Positions 1,891 to 21,499 of a stretch of 39,561 nucleotides of DNA are shown here, piece by piece (position 1 is the first letter of the stretch; the number at the start of each line of letters is the position of its first letter). The stretch covers positions 1 through 39,561 of the forward strand of contig JAMNYG010000160.1 of assembly GCA_023622945.1 (NCBI GenBank), given 5' to 3'. The notes beneath the pieces are model-generated. The model was not told the origin of the DNA, ran no database searches, and was given only the letters and a program-made list of their open reading frames with translations. Both the position numbers and the translations under genes were made by a program. This DNA comes from Bacillota bacterium. GTDB lineage: Bacteria > Bacillota > Clostridia > Acetivibrionales > JAMNYG01.

Positions 1891-2931
1891 CTATTCATTT
1901 AATGCCACGGCCAGCGCAGCATAGTCCCCTATGCTCTCTCCAAGGGCTGCAGGTACAATTTTGCAAGCCTTTCTCGAATGAACCAGGGCTTCCCTCTCAA
2001 TAACCACAGATGTCCAGGGCCAAAGCAGGTCTTTGCACCTTGCAAATATGCTTCCTATGACTATGATTTCAGGGTTAAGTATGTCTATAAGCATTGAAAG
2101 TCCTTTCCCGAGATATTCTCCGCTGATCCTGAAAACTTCCCGTGCCAGTGGATCTCCATTCCTTGCAGCATCTGCCACTGTCTTCGCATCGATCTCCATA
2201 AGCTTATCGAAACTTTCACAGAAGCTGACTTTTTCTCCCATCTGAAGTTTCTCAATGACTTTTAACCTTGCAAGCCAGGCTATTCCTCCTCCGCTGCAGA
2301 AACCTTCGAAAGAGCCTGATTTTCCAAATCCTACAGGTCCGTAATCCGAAAGCCGGACATGACCTACTTCTCCTGCCATATCGCAAGTCCCGCTGTAAAG
2401 CTTTCCGTCCAGAATCAGGCCCGCACCCATGCCCGTTCCAAAGGTCAGGAATATGATATTGCTATAGCCTCGGGCAGCACCGAATTTCCACTCGGCAAGA
2501 GCACATGCATTTGCATCGTTTTGAAGCCTTGTCCTTATGCCGAAACGTTGCTCAAATATCCCTGTAATATGGATATTGTCCCATCCGGGGAGATTGGGCG
2601 GTGACATGATTATCCCTTTCCTGCTGTCAAGAGGGCCTCCGCAGCTTATGCCGATACTGTATATATCCTCCGGTCTTTTTCCGTTTCGCAAAAGAATTTC
2701 CCCAACTGTATCAAGCAGTTTATTCAGCGCATACTGGGCTCCCTTCTGGGTTTGGGTGTAAAACATCACCTTGTCCAGAATAGATATATTACAGCCATCT
2801 TCATCCAGGGCTGCATTTTTCCCGAAGTATCCTCCATCCAAACCGAAGCATCCTGCTTCTAAACAGGCAAGCATTACTGCGCATTTGGTACCGCCTATGT
2901 CTACGCCTATTATGTATTTCAGTCCGTCCAC
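1891..2931 (-). CDS. ROK-family sugar kinase
   Basis: An N-terminal ATP-binding motif (GVDIGGTK) and the catalytic-type motif LQNDANACALAEW identify a ROK kinase; glucokinases, fructokinases and N-acetylmannosamine kinases belong here. The usual zinc-binding CxCGxxGCxE segment is replaced by GFGKSGSFEGFCSGGG, so the three metal cysteines are missing and the glutamate is kept. I place the start at the GTG at 2931, because GAGGTG lies eight bases upstream and only a few residues precede the first strand; the ATG at 2961 lacks a clear ribosome binding site but is possible. It sits 46-76 bases downstream of the GH38 alpha-mannosidase, so phosphorylation of released mannose is a reasonable inference. 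Confidence 0.85.
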   Translation of the reverse strand: MDGLKYIIGVDIGGTKCAVMLACLEAGCFGLDGGYFGKNAALDEDGCNISILDKVMFYTQTQKGAQYALNKLLDTVGEILLRNGKRPEDIYSIGISCGGPLDSRKGIIMSPPNLPGWDNIHITGIFEQRFGIRTRLQNDANACALAEWKFGAARGYSNIIFLTFGTGMGAGLILDGKLYSGTCDMAGEVGHVRLSDYGPVGFGKSGSFEGFCSGGGIAWLARLKVIEKLQMGEKVSFCESFDKLMEIDAKTVADAARNGDPLAREVFRISGEYLGKGLSMLIDILNPEIIVIGSIFARCKDLLWPWTSVVIEREALVHSRKACKIVPAALGESIGDYAALAVALNE

Positions 2932-3006
2932 CGATGGTTCACCTCTCTTACCTCTATCCATGGGACTTCAACTCTGTTTTTGATTAACATTCCAACTTTA
3001 TCTTAA

Positions 3007-5556
3007 TCAGCATTCCAGTTCCAGCAAATTGCATTCCCTGACTTCCCCTTCAGGACCTTCGGGTATTCTGAAAGTCTTGATTTCGCACTTGCCGAAGTTT
3101 GCCGTCCATCTTCTTTTTAACATGGGGATCTCGATTTCAGCCGTACAGGGTCGCCCCGAAGTTTCATAGCAGCGCAGTACGTATCCTTTGCCATCTTCAG
3201 CTATTTTAAATACCGTGGCAACAATACTGTCACCCGATATTTTTATTCCTTCAAAACTCAAGGGCATAGGTCCTTTATGGTATGTTTCCGGAACCTGTTC
3301 ACACCCGACATTAAGCTCATATGCTTTCCTTACAATGCCCGCATCTTTCCAGTTTCCTGCATGAGGCACAAGTGCATATGTAAATTCCTGCACACCCTGG
3401 TCCATATACTCGCAGAAGTCGTCCCTATAGTCTGTCCCATAGTGGTCGGCATAGACGGCACCCCTTGCAACCGTCATCCTCATGTCATTTTCCTTTACGT
3501 CAAAGCTGTATTTCCCGGCATTAAGGAGTGCAAGACCGTATTCCATATTCTCATTGGAGGACAAAGTTCCGCTTACATCCAGCCATTGCTGGCCGGGTTC
3601 CTCTTCCCCGTTCACAGGCCTTTCAATGTATCCGTAGGGTATCTCGTAAACAGAACGGGGATTCCTGACATTTACCGGGAAGGAAAGCTTAAGCATCCTG
3701 TGCTTTTCTCTCCAGTCCAGCTTTACCTTCACTTCAATATCCGGTTTATGCCTGTACAGTATAAAATCCTGCCGGAGCAACGAGTTGCCGTATCGGCTTT
3801 TAACCCGTAAAACGGCGCGCAGAGGTCCGCTTTCAAGGACCTTCACTTCTGCATTCTCAAATCGGCCCGCCTCATTTCGGAACTCGAAAATGCCGTGAGC
3901 CCAGGTATCCATGTTTTCCTCATCTATTACCACAGGAACGGCACCGTAGCCTTCTATAACTTCCACGTCATTTTTCTTATCATATAACCTTTTTATATAT
4001 CCCGTATGCTGCTCTATCTCAAGCCGCACAAAATCATTCTCCAGAACGGCTGGTTCAGCGGGAGTATTCACTGCTATCTCAGCAGGAACAGCCGTCTCAA
4101 CCGCTTCAGCTTTCAGCATGCCGACTGCAGCAGCGGTGACGAACTCCCTGCTTTTGTAAGTCCAGAATACCCTGTATCCCATGGCCGGAATGCGTGCCAA
4201 GAAAAGCGTGTCCCACTTGTCGTATCCGTTGGTCCGGCTGGCTCTGACGGTTTGTATGGGGAGAGGGTTTCTCTTGTCATCCGTAACTCCCGAAAATCTT
4301 GAGCTTGCATGGACCGGTACCTGAACTTCCCACGACAGGGGATTGAATACCACCAGCGGTGCTCCAAGATCATCCTGTTCCCATACAACCCAATCCTTGT
4401 CTTTGCTCAGGGTCGTGACACCTTCACGCATGGTGTCGATGGACCACGATATCTTCTGAAGTGAGGAATTCAGCACTTTTGCTCCTGTGCTGAGGGCTTC
4501 CCCGCAGAACTCTTCTGCATCCTGGTATGCTTCCTTTATGCTGCAGCCTCCCATTATATCGTGGAACTGGTTGAACAATACATTTTCCCAGGCTTGTCTA
4601 AGCTTTTCGGTAGCCCTCGGCAGCCCCAGAATGTGGGAAGCTATCGCATTGAATTTTTCGGCTGCAAGAAGCCTGTGTTCAGCACTCCTGTTGAGAAGTT
4701 TTATCTCAGAATGCGCAGAATAGCAGCCGCTGGCATGGTGCTGCAGGTCTTCCTTCACCACGGGAAGTTCAATATTTTGTCGGCTTACTTCTTCAAAATA
4801 TATCTCGGGCGAGCTGATCAGCACCCTGTCCCTGCCCCAGCTCTCCATTATCCTGCGTATGGTCTGCAGGTTCTTTATTGTAGGACCTCCCCCATGATTT
4901 CCCACGCCGTAAAAATTCATAAGATCCTTGTTTTCTTCTTCCGCAAGCTTTAAGACCGCAAGAGTTTTCTGTTCCAGGGGATCTCCTTCACCATGCCACC
5001 ACGTTCCGTAATTAAAAGGTATCCTGAAAGCCATCACCCTGCTTCCGTCCCCGCTTTCCCACCAGAAAAGGCTGCCGGGAAGCTTTTTTTCATGTTCACC
5101 GGGTCTCATGAATAGGTAAAAGTCCATTCCGCTTTTTTTCAATATCTGTGGAAGCATGGCATTGTGCCCGAAGGAATCCACGTTGTATCCCACCCTGGCC
5201 ATGGTGCCGAACTTCTCCAGAAAATACCTCTGGCTGTACAAACCATGGCGTGCAAAGGATTCTCCCGAAGGTATGTTGCAGTCTGGCTGCACCCACCATC
5301 CTCCCACTATCACCCATCGTCCTTCCCTGACCCTTTGCTTTATCTCCTGAAACATTTCCGGGGCGATTTCCTCCACCCACTTGTAGTAAGCACAGCCGGC
5401 ACAGGTAAAGATAAATTCCGGAAACTGCTGCATCCTGTCAAGGGCTGACCTGAAGGTGGCTTTTATTTCTGCAAACCCTTCCTGCCATCTCCATAGCCAT
5501 ACCGGGTCCAGGTGGGCATTGCCTATAAGATGTACTTTTCTTTCTTCTTTTATCAT
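3007..5556 (-). CDS. GH38 alpha-mannosidase, cytoplasmic
   Basis: At 849 residues this is a full-length bacterial GH38 enzyme, which removes alpha-linked mannose with retention using a divalent metal. The metal-binding HLD is at about residues 15-17 (AHLDPVWLW), the substrate pocket motif GGWWVQPDCNIPSGES at about 85-100, and the likely nucleophile is Asp127 in GYNVDSFGHN. C-terminal beta-sandwich domains occupy roughly 390-849. There is no signal peptide, so it acts inside the cell on imported or internally turned-over mannosides. It lies 48 bases downstream of the GT2 gene and just upstream of the ROK kinase, in what appears to be one operon. Linkage preference cannot be told from sequence. 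Confidence 0.93.
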   Translation of the reverse strand: MIKEERKVHLIGNAHLDPVWLWRWQEGFAEIKATFRSALDRMQQFPEFIFTCAGCAYYKWVEEIAPEMFQEIKQRVREGRWVIVGGWWVQPDCNIPSGESFARHGLYSQRYFLEKFGTMARVGYNVDSFGHNAMLPQILKKSGMDFYLFMRPGEHEKKLPGSLFWWESGDGSRVMAFRIPFNYGTWWHGEGDPLEQKTLAVLKLAEEENKDLMNFYGVGNHGGGPTIKNLQTIRRIMESWGRDRVLISSPEIYFEEVSRQNIELPVVKEDLQHHASGCYSAHSEIKLLNRSAEHRLLAAEKFNAIASHILGLPRATEKLRQAWENVLFNQFHDIMGGCSIKEAYQDAEEFCGEALSTGAKVLNSSLQKISWSIDTMREGVTTLSKDKDWVVWEQDDLGAPLVVFNPLSWEVQVPVHASSRFSGVTDDKRNPLPIQTVRASRTNGYDKWDTLFLARIPAMGYRVFWTYKSREFVTAAAVGMLKAEAVETAVPAEIAVNTPAEPAVLENDFVRLEIEQHTGYIKRLYDKKNDVEVIEGYGAVPVVIDEENMDTWAHGIFEFRNEAGRFENAEVKVLESGPLRAVLRVKSRYGNSLLRQDFILYRHKPDIEVKVKLDWREKHRMLKLSFPVNVRNPRSVYEIPYGYIERPVNGEEEPGQQWLDVSGTLSSNENMEYGLALLNAGKYSFDVKENDMRMTVARGAVYADHYGTDYRDDFCEYMDQGVQEFTYALVPHAGNWKDAGIVRKAYELNVGCEQVPETYHKGPMPLSFEGIKISGDSIVATVFKIAEDGKGYVLRCYETSGRPCTAEIEIPMLKRRWTANFGKCEIKTFRIPEGPEGEVRECNLLELEC

Positions 5557-5604: not shown

Positions 5605-6564
5605 TCATCTCGGTTTCCTGTTTGCATCATCCATATTTCTGGTCTGTCTGACGATGTACAGGGGCCTTCCCTTTGCCTCATCGTATATCCTGCCTATGTA
5701 CTCCCCTATGATGCCGAGCATGATGAGAACAATCCCGTTGAAGAACAGGCTTACTGCCATTGTTGAAGCCCAACCCTGTATGGTCTTGTCTGTGAACAGC
5801 TTTTGATAAAGGACCACAAGCAGGTAGATGAAACTGAAAAATGAAAGCAGCAGCCCCGTATAGGAAGCCAGTTTCAGAGGCTTGTATGAAAACGAAGTGA
5901 TGGCGTCAAACGCAAATTTCATCATCTTCTTAAGGGGGTACTTGGTCTCACCGGCAAAACGCTTGTCCCTGACAAACTCCACGCCGATCTGCTTGAATCC
6001 CAGCCAGCTTATAAGCCCCCGGACATACCTGTTGCGTTCATTTATGCTTTTTAAGGCATCGCAGACCTTGCGGTCTATGAGCCTGAAATCACCCGTGTCC
6101 ACTGGTATATCCACTTCCGTCATGGTTCTTAAAAAACGGTAAAACAACTTGGCGGTAAACTTCTTGAAAAAAGTTTCGCCCTTACGCTGTATCCTCTTTC
6201 CGTATACTACGTCATAGCCTTCTTTCCATTTTTCCGCCATCCTGGGTATGAGTTCGGGCGGGTCCTGCAAATCAGCATCTATAACAACTACTGCCTTTCC
6301 CGATGAATAATCCATGCCGGCGGTTATGGCGATCTGATGCCCGAAGTTTCTTGAGAAATCTATCAGCTTAACATTTTTGTCGGTTTCACATATTTCGTTA
6401 ATTATGTAAGCAGTCCTGTCCTTACTTCCATCGTTTACAAAAATGATCTCGTAGGGTTCTCCAAGACCATCCATCACCGTTTTAAGTCTTTTATATGATT
6501 CCAGTACAACCTCTTCTTCATTAAAAACGGGTACAACAACCGAATAAACAATCTCCCCTGGCAT
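5605..6564 (-). CDS. GT2 polyprenyl-phosphate glycosyltransferase (DPM1/GtrB/ArnC-like)
   Basis: The first 220 residues form a GT-A fold: the nucleotide-binding start YSVVVPVFNEEE, the metal-binding DADLQDPPE near 97-105, and the GDFRLIDR segment typical of DPM1/GtrB enzymes. Two C-terminal membrane helices follow (about 235-258 and 268-292), as in GtrB and ArnC. Such enzymes load a sugar from a nucleotide donor onto undecaprenyl phosphate at the inner membrane face. The start has GGAGG seven bases upstream. It lies 15 bases downstream of the large GT-C gene, which would use its product as donor. Mannose is the likely sugar given the GT39 and GH38 neighbours, but glucose or another hexose is possible. 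Confidence 0.9.
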   Translation of the reverse strand: MPGEIVYSVVVPVFNEEEVVLESYKRLKTVMDGLGEPYEIIFVNDGSKDRTAYIINEICETDKNVKLIDFSRNFGHQIAITAGMDYSSGKAVVVIDADLQDPPELIPRMAEKWKEGYDVVYGKRIQRKGETFFKKFTAKLFYRFLRTMTEVDIPVDTGDFRLIDRKVCDALKSINERNRYVRGLISWLGFKQIGVEFVRDKRFAGETKYPLKKMMKFAFDAITSFSYKPLKLASYTGLLLSFFSFIYLLVVLYQKLFTDKTIQGWASTMAVSLFFNGIVLIMLGIIGEYIGRIYDEAKGRPLYIVRQTRNMDDANRKPR

Positions 6565-6579: not shown

Positions 6580-9500
6580 TTAAAAATACCATCTGTCCTT
6601 GAACCATCTAAGGTAGTTATCGATATATGTCCTATCCACTTCCATTCCAGAAAGAACAGGATAAAACATGGCAAAGAGCACGCCTGCAATAAAAAGATAA
6701 GCCCACGCTCCGTATTTAAAATCACGGTTCTTTTCAATAAGATGCTTGATGACATATACCATAGCCAGTATCATAAAAGGCACTACGGCATAGAAATGGT
6801 ATATGAATGTCACCCTGTCTACGGGTATCCACGGTAAATATTGTGACAACATCGCGACAAACACGGGGATCATCTTTCTGTCCCGGTTTTTGACCGAGAT
6901 TAACACTGCTGCGGCTACAGCAGCAATTCCCGCCCACCAAATGGCCGGATTGCCCATTGAAACTATGCTGGCTGCTCTTCCTTCGGGCAGGTCGGAGGCC
7001 GCATAAAACCAAATGGGCTTCCAGATTATTGGCCACGACCACCATGAAGATTTGAAGCTGTGGTCGGCTGTAAGGTTGGCATGGTATTTATACATATGTA
7101 CCTGGTATGTGAAAACATCTTTAAGCCCATGGCCGGGTCCCGGCACCATCATGAACGGTATGTAGGACATAAGGTAAATTGCTGCCGGTATTGCTATGAA
7201 AAACAAGATGCAAAAAGCCATGGTCCTTATTATGTAATGGGAAAAGAACTGTTTAAGCCACGGAACCTCCCTGTATCTCCTGTCGCTTGTCAACAGCCGG
7301 TAATCTCCGTATTCCTCGTATTTGGTCAGGAAAAACAAAAATGCAAGACCGGCTGCTCCGTAGATAGCAATCCATTTGCTGGCCGCCCCCAGTCCAAAGA
7401 ACAGACCGCAGAAAAACAGGGATTTAAGGGACCGCCTGTAACCCAGGGCATATGATTTATTCACATAGTAGTCATACATGTAATAATACATAAGGATTAT
7501 GAAAAACACCCCATACGTATCAATGGTCGCGATCCTTGACTGAACAAAATGCATAAAATCAAACATTATCAGGAATGCAGCACAAAAAGCATAAAACCTT
7601 TCTTCAAACATCTTCTTTCCAAAGATATACATAACCGGGATCATTGCAGCTCCGAACAATACCCCCGCTATTCTCCACCCAAAAGGATTCATCCCGGCGA
7701 TCAGTATACCCAAAGCTATGAATATCTTTCCCAGGGGAGGGTGAGTCGATTCATAAGGTTCTATGCGATGGATATGTTCATATGCCGTTCTGGCATGATA
7801 AATCTCATCAAAATATGTGCTTGTCCTGAGAGTCCTCTCATACTCAAACATATGCTGTTCATCGAACAGATTCTCAACAGTCCCTCTGTCTTCAGGATGA
7901 ACCTGCTTTTCAACAATTCTGATTCCCTCAAGGGATTTTCTGCTTCCCTTTTCCACTATAACCAGTTCATTAAGGGTCTTTCCCGGTGCATTGGCTGAAA
8001 CCTTTATCCATCTGGCTTTGGCGGCAACTTTTATATGTTCCCAGGCATATATATCCCCTTCACTGATGTTTGCAGAAGCCACAGATGTACCCGAACCGTC
8101 TATGAATTCAATCCTGTAACTTCCTTTGTCATATATCCTGTCATTGATTCCGTAGTAATAATATATCCTCGATATATCAGCCTCTTTCCCGAGATCTATT
8201 GTAAAGCTTTCTCCGGCAATGGCAGGCTGCCATGAAGTATTGGGCGCTTCAAACCCTCCGAGGTTGATAATGGATACTATCAGATATACCAGGGTCATTC
8301 CGGCCATTATCAAGATATCCCTGCCATCTATATGCAAAGCTTTAACCCTGGGATTGACCATCCTGTCCATACTGTTTCCCATAAGCTTGTGTGTCCCCTT
8401 TGCCCTGAACTTATCCGACGAGCCCATTCCGCTCTTTACAGTAAGGCCCTTGGCAGGATTGTTGGCAAAAACAGGAATGATTTTCCCCTTTATGACCATA
8501 TCATATGCCACCTTTACAAGACCGGCAAATAACAGCACGTTTACCAGTGAAGCTGCCCGCAGCAAAAAATCATTGGGGGGAATATGAGGATTCCCGGTAT
8601 TCAGCACCCTGGACAAAACAACATGGGAGTTCAGAAAAACCAGGACGGTCATCGAGACAAACAACAGCCCAAGCCTCCTGTCCTTCAGGTGGACAAAGCA
8701 AAGAAGCACAAGGGCGATTACAGGAAACATATATCTTTCATGCATTCTGGAAACAAGGACAAAGGCACCGGCATTAAGCAACAGCCCTGCAATGAAAGGC
8801 AAAGAAACGTGACGTCCCTTAAGATAAAGAAAACCGGTAAATATCACAAGAATTACAGCCAGTACCAATCCCCATGTCCTGTAGCTGAACAGGAACCAGA
8901 TTTCCGAATCATCCTTCAGGTTTGCGCCAAGCAGGCTGAAAAGGTTGAAGGCGTTCAAAGAAGCGTTGGTATATCCCGATGCGGTATTCATATATAATTT
9001 CAATATCCAAAGAGGCCGCTGGTTAAAGGAAAAGGGAAGAATAACTGCCAAGGCAGTCATAAGTCCTGCAATGGCTGCATTAATGAATGGCTTTATTTCC
9101 TTCCTCTTTAGCAACTCAAACAAAAGCACGGGCAGGAAGAAAATTCCCTGGGGCTTCATAAGGACTGCAGCACAAAGCATGGCTGATGAAGCGCCTGTCC
9201 TGTTTTCCCGAAGCAGAATAAGAGCAGATACAATCATCATGGTAAAAAATGAATCAACCTGACCCCAGAGGGTGGAGTTGAGCAAAACCGCAGGATTAAA
9301 GGCATATGCTGCAGCCAGGAGCAGTTCCCATGCTTCCGGCAAGTGCCTTTTAGCAGCCCGGTACAGAATATATGCGGTAACAAGATCGGCCATCATGGAA
9401 GGCAGCCTGACAAGCAAAGTAAAGTATGGGTTCAGCCACGGAATGGATGCGAGTTTTCCTACAATAAACAATATGTATATGTAAAAGGGAGGATAGTCGC

Positions 9501-10386
9501 AGAAAATGCCGCTGGTGTAAAACCCTGGCAAATCTTTGGCCGCTTCCAAAGCCCAGGCTTTAAAACATGCAATGTCAGAAGGAAAGCCTTCAACGGCCGA
9601 AGCCAAAATCAGCCTTAAAACCAGACCGGCTCCCAAAATCAGGCAGAGAAGAGCCTTTTCATCTCTGTACTTAATTTTTATCTTTTTACTTTTCATATAA
9701 TAATAGCAGAGACACAATATCAGTACAAATATTACGGTGTACCAAATCATGCCCGAGCCGTAAACCTTATGCCCGTTCCTGCCGCCTGAAACGTTGCTGC
9801 TTCCCGATTCCGGGTAAAGGTTGACCACTCCGATGCCTTCCGGAACAGAATCAACCTTTTCAACCAAAACGTCATCAAACCAGGCTTTTCCGGTGCTTTC
9901 TCCGCCATAACCACCAAGACCTACGGTGATGACAAAACTTTTCTGGTCGCTGCCGGTTTTTCCATAGAGCTCAACATACTCCCATCCGCTGCTGGTACCG
10001 TATATGCTTCGAGATCTGTAAAGGGTTCCAAGTATGGAAAGGTTTGCGCCCTTACCCTCAATTTCTACTCCTTCTGTCTTTATCCAGCAGGAAAGCCTGT
10101 AGTATGAATCAGGCTCCACGGCTATTTCCTGAGTATATCTGGCATCGTTCAGGGAATTGTTTATTATACACGCGCTTCTGCCCCCGTTATGGCTTTGTCC
10201 GCTGTCAATCCTGAACAGGGTCACGTTGCTTTGGCTGTTCCAATTGTAAACGGACCAGCCCTCGGGTATATTCCCGTTTCCGTCTTCAAAGCCCGGATTC
10301 CGCACGATATTTTTGCCTTCAGCAAATACATGTATGCTGAAAATTACCGTTACGCATAGTACAAGTACCGCTATCCTTCTTAGCAC
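6580..10386 (-). CDS. Two-unit GT-C membrane glycosyltransferase with extracytoplasmic binding domains (C-terminal GT39/PMT-like)
   Basis: This 1268-residue protein (numbered from the GTG at 10386) is a fusion. A signal-like helix (about 5-23) is followed by a carbohydrate-binding-type beta-sandwich (25-178). A first polytopic GT-C unit (215-635) has an aspartate in the first loop (FPSDIACFKAW) and WGQVDSFF. A linker with a discoidin-like sandwich (715-815) leads to a second GT-C unit (690-1268) with the GT39/PMT hallmarks YFDEIYHARTAYEH (858-871) and HPPLGK (882-887). GT39 enzymes transfer mannose from a polyprenyl phosphate carrier outside the membrane. The start is uncertain: the track start at 10593 overlaps the transporter deeply; GTG 10386 gives a normal signal peptide but a close AGGTG; ATG 10452 has AGGGGG nine bases upstream and a 34-base overlap. 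The gene sits between transporter and GT2. Confidence 0.85.
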   Translation of the reverse strand: MLRRIAVLVLCVTVIFSIHVFAEGKNIVRNPGFEDGNGNIPEGWSVYNWNSQSNVTLFRIDSGQSHNGGRSACIINNSLNDARYTQEIAVEPDSYYRLSCWIKTEGVEIEGKGANLSILGTLYRSRSIYGTSSGWEYVELYGKTGSDQKSFVITVGLGGYGGESTGKAWFDDVLVEKVDSVPEGIGVVNLYPESGSSNVSGGRNGHKVYGSGMIWYTVIFVLILCLCYYYMKSKKIKIKYRDEKALLCLILGAGLVLRLILASAVEGFPSDIACFKAWALEAAKDLPGFYTSGIFCDYPPFYIYILFIVGKLASIPWLNPYFTLLVRLPSMMADLVTAYILYRAAKRHLPEAWELLLAAAYAFNPAVLLNSTLWGQVDSFFTMMIVSALILLRENRTGASSAMLCAAVLMKPQGIFFLPVLLFELLKRKEIKPFINAAIAGLMTALAVILPFSFNQRPLWILKLYMNTASGYTNASLNAFNLFSLLGANLKDDSEIWFLFSYRTWGLVLAVILVIFTGFLYLKGRHVSLPFIAGLLLNAGAFVLVSRMHERYMFPVIALVLLCFVHLKDRRLGLLFVSMTVLVFLNSHVVLSRVLNTGNPHIPPNDFLLRAASLVNVLLFAGLVKVAYDMVIKGKIIPVFANNPAKGLTVKSGMGSSDKFRAKGTHKLMGNSMDRMVNPRVKALHIDGRDILIMAGMTLVYLIVSIINLGGFEAPNTSWQPAIAGESFTIDLGKEADISRIYYYYGINDRIYDKGSYRIEFIDGSGTSVASANISEGDIYAWEHIKVAAKARWIKVSANAPGKTLNELVIVEKGSRKSLEGIRIVEKQVHPEDRGTVENLFDEQHMFEYERTLRTSTYFDEIYHARTAYEHIHRIEPYESTHPPLGKIFIALGILIAGMNPFGWRIAGVLFGAAMIPVMYIFGKKMFEERFYAFCAAFLIMFDFMHFVQSRIATIDTYGVFFIILMYYYMYDYYVNKSYALGYRRSLKSLFFCGLFFGLGAASKWIAIYGAAGLAFLFFLTKYEEYGDYRLLTSDRRYREVPWLKQFFSHYIIRTMAFCILFFIAIPAAIYLMSYIPFMMVPGPGHGLKDVFTYQVHMYKYHANLTADHSFKSSWWSWPIIWKPIWFYAASDLPEGRAASIVSMGNPAIWWAGIAAVAAAVLISVKNRDRKMIPVFVAMLSQYLPWIPVDRVTFIYHFYAVVPFMILAMVYVIKHLIEKNRDFKYGAWAYLFIAGVLFAMFYPVLSGMEVDRTYIDNYLRWFKDRWYF

Positions 10387-10418: not shown

Positions 10419-10790
10419 CTATTTGATTGACACAACTATTATTCCGATGCATATAAGCAATCCCCCTATTATCCTGTTGACAGGTAATGGCTCTGAAAAA
10501 ACAAAATATGAAGCTGCCATTACAAGTATGAAGGTCAGCAGCGTAAAGGGATAAGCATAGTTTAAAGGAGTTTTTGACAATGCAAAAAGCCACAGCAATG
10601 TACTCAAACCATAAAAAACCAGTCCTGTCAGTATAAGCGGTGAAGAAAGAATATTGGCAATAATTCGGATGATACCCGCCAGATCATGGCTGATACCCTG
10701 AATACCCAGATTCATCATGCCTTTCTTGAAAAGAACCTGTCCGCAACTGGCAAACAGCACGGAAATAAGCAGCATAATTTTCGAACTCAT
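10419..10790 (-). CDS. Small EamA/EmrE-like four-helix transporter, possible lipid-carrier flippase
   Basis: This 123-residue protein has four predicted membrane helices. It has the small multidrug resistance/EamA half-transporter pattern: a start like LISVLFASCGQVLFKKG, an LNYAYP turn before helix 3, and a GGLLICIGIIVV final helix. The nearest logic is ArnE/ArnF, which flip undecaprenyl-linked aminoarabinose. The track start (TTG 10820) is replaced by ATG 10790, which has GAGGGAG six bases upstream. It is the first gene of the cluster, followed 32 bases later by the double GT-C gene and then GT2, so moving the GT2 product across the membrane is a sensible inference. A drug or metabolite exporter remains possible. 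Confidence 0.8.
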   Translation of the reverse strand: MSSKIMLLISVLFASCGQVLFKKGMMNLGIQGISHDLAGIIRIIANILSSPLILTGLVFYGLSTLLWLFALSKTPLNYAYPFTLLTFILVMAASYFVFSEPLPVNRIIGGLLICIGIIVVSIK

Positions 10791-20161: not shown

Positions 20162-21346
20162 TCAGGCAACATTTTGACCTTTCTCCTTGTTATAAACCAA
20201 TTTTCTGTCAAGAAGTGTAAGGAACAATATTATCAGGCTGCCGTACAACAGGAGGCTTGAGAAACCGGCAGTTACCCCCAGAAGGTCATTGGTCTTTCCT
20301 ATCAGCCAGTTTGATATCATGTTCACACTGCCGGAAGCGGTTATAATAATTCCCATTTTTGTTCCCATTCCTTCCTTGAATTCTTTCATGATAATCGCCA
20401 TTACAGTAGGGAACATGATTGATATGAAAAACCCTGTAAACGAGAAAAGAAAAGCAAAGCTTCTTCCCAGAACCAGTCCTGACAGTTGCAAAGCCAGTGA
20501 AACAACGGTAAAAATAAAAATAATCCTGATATAACCCAGCTTCTCGGCTATATATCCTCCAAAAAGCCTTCCCAGGGTAAACGTAATAAAGAAAAGGGAA
20601 AGGTAAAACGAGCTTTTATCTACATTCATTCCCCACTCCTTCTGCAGGAAATTGACCAGCCAATTGCCGGTACCAAGCTCTATTACCTCACAGAAGCCCA
20701 ATAACCCGACAAAAAGCCACACTTTGACATCGGATATGGCCGCTCCGGCAGGTATCTTGCCTTCAGAATCTCCGTTAACACTCTGAGGAAAAGAAACCAT
20801 GCACAGGTAAATAAACACTGCCACACCAGGTATGACCGAATAGAAATAAGTATAATTCCAGCTTATACCATTTTTAATCATCCATCCTGCATATTTCGGC
20901 CCTATGGATGAACCCAGCCCGTAAAAAAGGTGCGTGAGATTCATCATCACGGCAGAATTTCTCACAAACATACGTGCTCCCAGCAAATTGACGCCCACCT
21001 CAAAGCACCCGAATCATGTATTCAGGATGAAAAACAATATTACCACCGCTGTAAAAGAACGGACAAATACAAAAGAAAGACAGGAGAAAATCAGCAAAAT
21101 AAATCCCACAACGAGAACCTTTTTCAATCCGAACCTGTCCCCGGCATATCCTCCCAGAAAAGTAGCCATGAGATAACCAAGGGTGGATACCATAAGCATT
21201 ATGCCAATGCTTCCGTAGCTGACACCAAACTGATCCCTTATAGGCGGTATAGCAGTTCCTTTCTGGTTTTCCACAAAACCGAATATCAGTGAACATAAGA
21301 AAGCAAATGCTATGACATATTTTCTGTCTTTTAAAAGATATCTCAT
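20162..21346 (-). pseudogene. MFS transporter interrupted by an in-frame TGA
   Basis: Two track ORFs (21014-21496 and 20162-20998) are one reading frame split by a single TGA at 21014-21016. Translation reads FFILNT, stop, FGCFEVGVNLLGARMF with no frame change, so one substitution, for instance from GGA, would restore a 394-residue protein with about 12 helices. The first half has the MFS loop LGGYAGDRFGLKK; the second has GRLFGGYIAEKLG. The true start is ATG 21346 after AAAGGAGA. The rest shows no decay, so the mutation is recent, a sequencing error, or the gene is still partly expressed through restart at the GTG at 20998. The transporter probably imported a sugar for the adjacent catabolic genes. 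Confidence 0.85.
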
Positions 21347-21383
21347 TCTGTCTCCTTTCCGGTTCTTCCCTGCGCATGCATAT

Positions 21384-21436
21384 GAAAGCTTTTCTGCAAA
21401 CCTTAAGCTTGCCTGTCGGTCTGCAGAAAAGCTTTC
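21384..21436. repeat. Perfect 15-bp-arm inverted repeat upstream of the MFS gene
   Basis: GAAAGCTTTTCTGCA and its exact complement are separated by 23 bases. It lies between the BNR gene stop and the MFS start. On the minus strand the hairpin is not followed by T residues, so an operator or an mRNA processing/stability hairpin is more likely than a terminator. Confidence 0.7.
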
Positions 21437-21499
21437 CTTAAGCATAGAAATTATTCTGTTACACTGTTTATCACAAAATGTTGGTTTTGCGCCCAACTG

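Follow-up and report, generated by a model that had tools for sequence, protein, structure and literature searches.

Gene organization of the locus

The window, i.e., the whole stretch of 39,561 nucleotides that was analyzed, carries on its minus strand a gene for a single polypeptide in which two different GT-C glycosyltransferase units are predicted, each with a sugar-binding-like domain, together with neighboring genes related to sugar metabolism and transfer. The features are as follows, those within the fused gene being given from the N-terminus of its product.

6580..10386, minus strand: fused double GT-C glycosyltransferase, 1268 aa, GTG start (inferred)
9847..10317, minus strand: CBM16/CBM4-like β-sandwich, N-terminal, residues 24-180, predicted extracellular (Foldseek; Pfam below cut-off)
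8494..9777, minus strand: anchor helix (204-234) and predicted GT87-type GT-C unit (240-631) (Pfam, AF2, Foldseek, profile)
9574..9576, minus strand: Asp271 of FPSDIACF, predicted GT87 catalytic base (invariant in 85/85 sequences)
8326..8493, minus strand: basic linker, residues 632-687, with 11 K/R and 3 D/E, predicted cytoplasmic
6583..8325, minus strand: predicted GT39/PMT GT-C unit (TM1 688-706; core 855-1268) (Pfam, AF2, Foldseek)
7837..8238, minus strand: CBM32/discoidin-like sandwich in extracellular loop 1, residues about 717-850 (profile, Foldseek)
7804..7809, minus strand: Asp860-Glu861 of YFDEIYH, predicted GT39 catalytic pair (invariant in 91/91 sequences)
10419..10790, minus strand: SMR-type ArnF-like flippase subunit, upstream (NCBIfam ArnF 59.4 bits, under the cut-off of 99)
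5605..6564, minus strand: GT2, PgfS/ArnC-like polyprenyl-phosphate-sugar synthase, downstream (Pfam Glycos_transf_2 129 bits)
3007..5556, minus strand: GH38 α-mannosidase-type gene, codirectional, possibly in the same operon (weak link)
1891..2961, minus strand: ROK-family sugar kinase, codirectional (weak link)

The fused gene is an uninterrupted open reading frame of 1268 codons, which extends from a GTG at 10386 to a stop at 6580, and no internal frameshift or stop is present anywhere in this frame. Because the open frame runs on in the 5' direction to a GTG at 10593, the exact start of the gene is unproven. A gap of 33 bp separates the stop of the upstream gene from the fused gene, and the GT2 gene starts 15 bp after it, both neighbors belonging to its operon. 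In the 2.67-Mb genome, the fused gene is the sole match to PF02366 (GT39) and likewise to PF09594 (GT87). The genome is a draft of 211 contigs, and relatives exist in which the two halves are split into adjoining genes, as might be expected if an assembly error or frameshift had joined two genes artificially. Such an artefact is nevertheless extremely improbable, because the same single reading frame recurs in independent assemblies. Of the 80 best genome loci, 76 carry it, in Paenibacillaceae, Christensenellaceae, Lachnospiraceae, Oscillospiraceae, and other families, and so do 10 of 100 related genomes.

Two distinct GT-C units in one chain

The preliminary description, made from the sequence of this DNA, had proposed a single protein with two GT-C units and two sandwich domains in alternating order. 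Pfam, profile, and AlphaFold/Foldseek evidence agree on this architecture and confirm, at the level of sequence and structural models, one intact chain containing two complete GT-C units and two sugar-binding-like domains. Structure prediction and HMM searches conducted separately on each half, as that description had suggested, identified the first unit as GT87-type and the second as GT39/PMT.

The N-terminus of the protein is a signal or transmembrane helix, which is followed by the first sandwich. This domain scored 18.5 bits with Pfam CBM_4_9, under the cut-off of 25.9, while Foldseek aligned its model with the CBM16 structures 2zey and 3oea (E about 1e-6, TMt 0.73-0.74); residues 24-178 also resemble CBM4/CBM61 structures. 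Its predicted fold confirms a CBM16/CBM4-like domain despite the sub-threshold Pfam score. The unit that follows scored 36.9 bits with GT87 PF09594 (cut-off 25), and its model (pLDDT 92.4, AF2, the halves of the protein being modeled separately) resembles ALG6 (6snh, TMt 0.60) and PimE (9dm7, TMt 0.65), while its family profile matches GPI mannosyltransferase 1 (E 6e-13). By profile and predicted fold, the first unit is a GT87-type, PimE-like GT-C and not an unrelated membrane domain, an outcome that the preliminary description had allowed for. An arrangement of two GT39 units was also considered and was ruled out by the same GT87 score and PimE/ALG6 fold.

In the AF2 model, Asp271 sits at the start of loop-1 helix 269-284, a position that corresponds to D58 at the JM1 tip of PimE (PMC12041525). 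Across 85 sequences of the GT87 half, D271, Y298-P-P, W374, Q376, K411, and H549 are invariant. Y298, Q376, K411, and H549 occur in the order of PimE residues Y92, Q163, K195, and H322, a correspondence based on motif order and not on superposition.

The second unit exceeded the cut-offs for both PMT PF02366 (53.9 bits, cut-off 22.7) and PMT_4TMC PF16192 (68.6 bits, cut-off 32.4), and its separate model (pLDDT 95.3) matched Pmt4 (9i5k, E 2e-14) and Pmt1 (E 4e-10; Pmt1/Pmt2 being 6p25) in Foldseek. The score with NF058602, the protein O-mannosyltransferase equivalog, was 69.6 bits, far under its cut-off of 800; by sequence, the second unit is a GT39 member of a different subfamily from this equivalog. 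Residues D860-E861, H882-P, R951, D956, and K1004 are invariant across 91 sequences of the GT39 half. The discoidin-like sandwich had been placed ahead of the second unit; the domain is indeed present, although it lies inside loop 1 of that unit, after TM1. It scored 18.7 bits with Pfam F5_F8_type_C (cut-off 28.2). Single-sequence phmmer searches of the PDB were uninformative and family profiles were therefore used; the loop-1 profile matched the CBM32 of CpGH89 (4a42, E 8e-5), and Foldseek related the model to fucolectin/CBM32 domains with a probability of 1.0. Profile and model together confirm a CBM32/fucolectin-type domain despite the sub-threshold Pfam score.

Duplicated membrane modules can turn into non-catalytic partners, and the preliminary description had entertained the idea that one unit serves for substrate recognition alone. 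A catalytically dead or recognition-only unit is very unlikely here, since the predicted catalytic Asp and Asp-Glu, like the further active-site residues listed above, are kept in every one of the 85 and 91 sequences of the respective halves; each half is also found as a stand-alone gene.

Distribution and evolution of the fusion

In other relatives, the halves are neighboring separate genes, with the GT87 gene first in order. Whether fused or split, the halves often have a GT2 gene after them. A tree of the GT39 half required eight changes between the fused and split states, at least four of which are forced by well-supported branches, and a single origin of the fusion is consequently not claimed. 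Fusions have been retained across wide divergence, and the distances of the two halves co-vary (r = 0.74).

Polyprenyl-phosphate-sugar-dependent GT-C enzymes have been studied as single-unit enzymes. The initial remark that GT39 enzymes usually carry one unit holds for those studied, but the double architecture is no one-off and turns up commonly among genomes of Bacillota. No description of a double or fused GT-C was found in the literature searched, which lay largely outside subscription journals, and no protein of the fused type is known to us to have been studied biochemically.

Neighboring genes and candidate acceptors

The downstream GT2 protein scored 297 bits with the PgfS equivalog NF047588, under the cut-off of 500, and a GT2 homologue is present in 23 of 80 related loci. 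Judged from its sequence, the upstream ArnF-like protein is probably a flipper of lipid-phosphate-sugars. No PgfE-like epimerase was detected among the neighboring genes scanned. Mannose was considered as the transferred sugar, in view of the GH38 and ROK neighbors.

Thr-Pro proteins were sought as DNA patterns of coding stretches in 100 related genomes, which were divided into 56 with a clear match to this GT39 type and 44 with none or a weak match. Stretches encoding (ThrPro)5 occurred in 32/56 genomes with this GT39 type vs. 1/44 without it (Fisher p 7e-10), or 18/28 vs. 1/29 when counted by family (p 6e-7). A (GluPro)5 control exhibited no link to the GT39 type (2/56 vs. 4/44 genomes). A perfect (ThrPro)5 is missing from some genomes that have this GT39 type, among them every member of one family (f4) in which the GT39 half occurs alone. 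There is no Thr/Pro-rich reading frame in the window, and few perfect Thr-Pro runs occur in its own genome, where (ThrPro)4 gave five matches in about three proteins.

In 18 Paenibacillaceae loci, picked for a genome-wide test after Thr-Pro neighbors had been noticed in some of them, 170 (ThrPro)6 matches were counted vs. 1.6 expected. For P. vini, P. doosanensis, and P. radicis, no (ThrPro)6 match in the genome lies farther than about 6 kb from the fused gene; among the Paenibacillaceae loci, about 27 in all, only 7 have a (ThrPro)6 neighbor. The Thr-Pro neighbors are of two types: LPXTG-anchored Thr-Pro stalks adjoining a class-D-type sortase, and secreted hydrolases, namely α-1,3-glucanases and pectate lyases, whose linkers are of the Thr-Pro kind. 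These sequence associations point to Thr-Pro-repeat proteins as the acceptor. In Caldicellulosiruptor bescii, where the linkers of CelA are alternating Thr-Pro, deletion of the GT39 gene Cbes_1864 abolished exoprotein glycosylation (PMC6151902).

As a separate observation, two related genomes (G045, G035) have a GT39-GT2 pair at a distance of about 14-18 kb from genes of the scaffoldin/anchor type that encode Thr-Pro linkers. Because the intervening genes are unrelated, a cellulosome link is kept as a weak hint.

A proposed two-step mechanism

Sequence and structure prediction establish the domain architecture, a pair of active sites that look intact, the clustering of the genes, and the association with Thr-Pro stretches. 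From these we infer the activities, order of addition, sugars, and flippase and CBM roles of a protein O-glycosyltransferase that would act in two steps on secreted and surface proteins, a reading to which we assign a probability of roughly 0.6. Inside the cell, the adjoining GT2 would synthesize a polyprenyl-phosphate-sugar, whose flipping the ArnF-like protein may assist. Outside, the GT39 half would transfer a first sugar to Thr/Ser in Thr-Pro-rich linkers or stalks, and the GT87 half of the same chain would add a second sugar onto the first from another polyprenyl-phosphate-sugar, while the two sandwiches might hold or sense the glycopeptide or nascent glycan. Addition of two sugars to one acceptor is the better supported of the two options originally put forward, with the sequential action itself inferred.

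GT87 might, however, have an acceptor different from the product of GT39. Both units might be active on different acceptors, GT39 on protein and GT87 on a cell-wall polymer or glycolipid, with fusion serving proximity to a shared donor pool or flippase; the characterized GT87 PimE works on a glycolipid (PMC12041525), and the paired GT-Cs SccM/SccQ decorate the cell-wall polysaccharide of Streptococcus mutans (PMC11754754). This is rather unlikely, given that no conserved glycolipid or wall-polymer gene stood out in the neighborhoods, that the functional neighbors which do recur comprise GT2, GtrA-like proteins, sortase, and secreted proteins with Thr-Pro, and that the fusion has been kept while its halves diverged in concert. 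Still less probable is a reversed order, in which GT87 extends a lipid-linked sugar and GT39 then transfers the disaccharide en bloc to protein: certain systems do assemble glycans on lipid prior to transfer, and the GT87 unit precedes the GT39 unit both within the chain and where the genes are split, but GT39 enzymes of the Pmt1/Pmt4 type, which the second unit matches in fold, use polyprenyl-phosphate-monosaccharide donors in the characterized cases known to us.

Under the two-step reading, the fusion directly predicts what extends O-glycans on the Thr-Pro linkers of Gram-positive cellulases, scaffoldins, and sortase-anchored stalks, a step for which we know of no assigned enzyme. The fused chain would also be a natural channeling scaffold for glycoengineering. 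A broader and more tentative proposal, to which we give slightly less than even odds, is that of a single-chain glycan assembly enzyme, in which two outer-face GT-C sites initiate and extend the O-glycan on Thr-Pro-rich proteins, a sugar-sensing module in each unit makes step two depend on step one, and the whole represents a general, undescribed system of many Bacillota.

Comparison with known systems

The recurrent, conserved fusion, which joins a GT39 predicted to initiate glycans on protein to a GT87, is a variant on known single-unit enzymes. Cbes_1864 shares the GT39 unit, the loop-1 CBM-like domain, the N-terminal signal, and the presumed acceptor type, Thr-Pro linkers (PMC6151902), but is a single GT-C of 556 aa without the GT87 half or the N-terminal CBM16/4-like domain. 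The eukaryotic GT39 enzymes Pmt1/Pmt2 and Pmt4 have the fold and DE motif in common with the second unit, as seen in profile and Foldseek matches, and differ in possessing neither a loop-1 CBM32-like domain nor a second GT-C unit. PimE, a mycobacterial α-1,2-mannosyltransferase of GT87, and ALG6 share with the first unit the GT-C fold and a catalytic Asp at the tip of the loop-1 helix, whereas PimE has a glycolipid acceptor, a single unit, no CBM, and about 15% identity in structural alignment. The Pgf system of S. mutans, consisting of PgfS, PgfM1, PgfE, and PgfM2, modifies an LPXTG surface protein in its Thr-rich part and likewise combines a PgfS-like GT2 with a pair of membrane proteins, of which one is of the PMT_2 type (PMC5856776); there the membrane proteins are separate, whereas here, next to a GT2 that falls under the PgfS equivalog cut-off, the two GT-C units are joined in one chain.

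Gene and Domain Organization

The fused gene (10386–6580, minus strand) is a single ORF that, on inspection of the reading frame, runs without interruption. Its frame is open further upstream, to GTG 10593 within the preceding gene, but GTG 10386 is the likely start codon, because translation from it gives a signal-type helix and because it starts 33 bp past that gene. Pfam matches along the protein follow the order CBM_4_9, GT87, F5_F8_type_C, PMT, and PMT_4TMC, of which CBM_4_9 and F5_F8_type_C are sub-threshold and the others exceed the Pfam cut-off. Throughout the host genome, no further PF02366 or PF09594 match was found besides this gene.

Residues 1–660 and 661–1268 were modeled separately, each half on its own alignment drawn from the related loci (85 and 91 sequences; pLDDT 92.4 and 95.3). 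The first 180 residues match CBM16/CBM4/CBM61 modules, while the remainder of the first half resembles ALG6 (6snh, TMt 0.60) and PimE (9dm7, TMt 0.65), a GT87 enzyme of solved structure. The second half matches Pmt4 (9i5k, E 2e-14) and Pmt1/Pmt2 (6p25), and the sandwich inserted in it matches CBM32 and fucolectin-type domains. Profile searches were concordant, retrieving GPI mannosyltransferase 1 for the first half and Pmt4/Pmt1/Pmt2 plus CBM32 for the second. The single ORF, the five ordered Pfam matches, and the folds of both halves bear out the preliminary description of one protein with two GT-C units and two sugar-binding-like domains. Its assignment of the second unit to GT39/PMT also held; the first unit, left there as GT-C, is GT87-type, over cut-off and with a predicted PimE/ALG6-like fold.

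Predicted Topology and Active-Site Residues

Predicted topology of the fused protein
N-terminal CBM: outside
Helix 204–234: inward
Core helix 240–262: outward, D271 outside
Basic linker 632–687 (11 K/R, 3 D/E): inside
TM1 of the GT39 unit: outward
CBM32-like domain: outside
D860–E861: outside

Enzymes that use polyprenyl-phosphate-sugars require outward-facing active sites. The predicted positions of D271 and D860–E861, based on helix order and charge, would make both active sites of the fused protein face outside.

Invariant residues comprise D271, W278, Y298-P299-P300, W374, Q376, K411, H549, R551, and Y552 in the GT87 half (85/85 sequences), and D860, E861, H882-P883, G886-K887, R951, D956, K1004-W1005, H1102, and H1109 in the GT39 half (91/91). 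For PimE, D58 has been put forward as the base, whereas Y92, Q163, K195, W319, and H322 are implicated in donor phosphate contact or activity (PMC12041525). Compared by motif order, Y298, Q376, K411, and H549 of the GT87 half follow the order of Y92, Q163, K195, and H322 in PimE, which is suggestive. Judged from sequence, both units look active.

Distribution of the Fusion

A search for the same architecture, proposed in the preliminary description, recovered GT87+F5/8+GT39 in a single ORF in 76 of the 80 best loci of a species-level genome collection; three carried the halves as separate ORFs within one locus, and one was broken off at a contig end. The N-terminal CBM is additionally present in 42/76 fused ORFs. 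The fusion is found in hosts such as Paenibacillus, Cohnella, Christensenellaceae, Lachnospiraceae, and Oscillospiraceae, and in a single betaproteobacterium (Deefgea). Of 100 related genomes, 10 more carry it, and in at least eight the halves are close neighbors, mostly in the order GT87, GT39, GT2. On the GT39 tree, eight changes between fused and split forms are needed, at least four of which well-supported branches force; evolutionary distances of the two halves co-vary (r = 0.74). Repeated fusion or splitting of the same two neighbors argues for a joint function.

Related arrangements occur at loci of relatives:
L037:2526–5705 (+), genome G029: a 1060-aa double GT-C of another make-up, adjoining a GT2; N-terminal half PMT_2-like, C-terminal half GT87-type
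L057:3998–5986 (+): a third GT-C, PMT_2-like, encoded just upstream of the fusion, with equivalents in five other Paenibacillus loci; the L057 protein ends in a CBM35-like domain
L023:3430–4314, L024:3881–4738, L043:8115–9050: stand-alone secreted-looking proteins with only a CBM4_9-like module, adjoining GT genes of the present kind

Given the first of these, GT87 units may have had several types of GT-C as fusion partners. The CBM4_9-only proteins come from the order of the window's genome, and one has a low-complexity Ser/Asp/Glu-rich tail.

Donor-Side Neighbors

An ArnF-like SMR subunit is encoded immediately upstream of the fused gene. The GT2 gene 15 bp downstream best matches PgfS and then ArnC in NCBIfam, both under the equivalog cut-off. 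Its homologs occur in 23/80 best loci; GtrA-like proteins (14/80) and class D type sortases (10/80) were named by inspection. Elsewhere in the window lie:
1891–5556 (−): GH38 alpha-mannosidase-type and ROK kinase genes, after the GT2 with short gaps
20162–20998 and 21014–21496 (−): two MFS_1 transporter pieces, end to end in different frames

The former are a possible link to mannose turnover; the latter are probably one gene split by a frameshift or sequencing error.

Association with Thr-Pro Proteins

In several relatives, an adjoining gene encodes long Thr-Pro repeats.

Thr-Pro proteins at loci of relatives
L056, L059, L064: LPXTG-anchored stalks close to a sortase
L053: LPXTG-like stalk near a sortase
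L055, L060, L072, L105: secreted enzymes carrying Thr-Pro linkers, either alpha-1,3-glucanases or of pectate-lyase type

A (Thr-Pro)6 DNA pattern gave 170 matches in 18 Paenibacillaceae loci against 1.6 expected from own-genome densities, a count inflated by overlapping matches; the 18 loci were picked once matches were known from some of them. The genomes of P. vini, P. doosanensis, and P. radicis have all their matches within the fused-gene locus. The safer figure is at least one island in 7 of about 27 Paenibacillaceae loci, across at least three tree clades. In a second test, on 100 relatives picked before Thr-Pro came into consideration, (Thr-Pro)5 occurred in 32/56 genomes with a clear GT39 match versus 1/44 with a weak one or none (p = 7e-10), and in 18/28 versus 1/29 with one vote per family (p = 6e-7), families not being fully independent. 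The (Glu-Pro)5 control ran in the opposite direction, in small numbers (2/56 versus 4/44). The association belongs to this GT39 type overall, not to the fused form alone.

In Paenibacillus and in one Clostridiales MAG, the sortase and fused-GT genes are repeatedly accompanied by genes for secreted transglutaminase-like proteins, recognized by inspection (L053:2796–4316; L057:12202–13071). In genomes G045 and G035, presumably A. thermocellus and A. clariflavus, a GT39-GT2 pair and cellulosome genes of anchor/scaffoldin type, which encode Thr-Pro linkers, lie ~14–18 kb apart, separated by unrelated genes (G045:C1:3626000–3655000; G035:C1:3842000–3869000).

Proposed Mechanism and Comparison with Known Systems

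In the mechanism we favor, at a probability of roughly 60%, the adjacent GT2 would make polyprenyl-phosphate-sugars, the GT39 unit would initiate by placing a first sugar on Thr/Ser within Thr-Pro-rich segments, and the GT87 unit would add a second, likewise from polyprenyl-phosphate-sugar. The two sugars may be identical, because the cluster holds one synthase. Each unit has one CBM-like domain, for which a role in holding the acceptor or sensing the growing glycan is plausible.

GT39, GT87, and the CBMs are known parts. The new element, of predicted function, is the conserved double-GT-C chain with its Thr-Pro association, of which no description was found in the open-access literature searched. 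The closest experimental precedents are the single-unit GT39 Cbes_1864 of C. bescii (PMC6151902) and the Pgf system of S. mutans, in which modification of a Thr-rich LPXTG adhesin depends on the synthase PgfS together with two membrane proteins (PMC5856776); the likeness of the latter to the fused-gene system lies in its way of working and does not imply a shared family.
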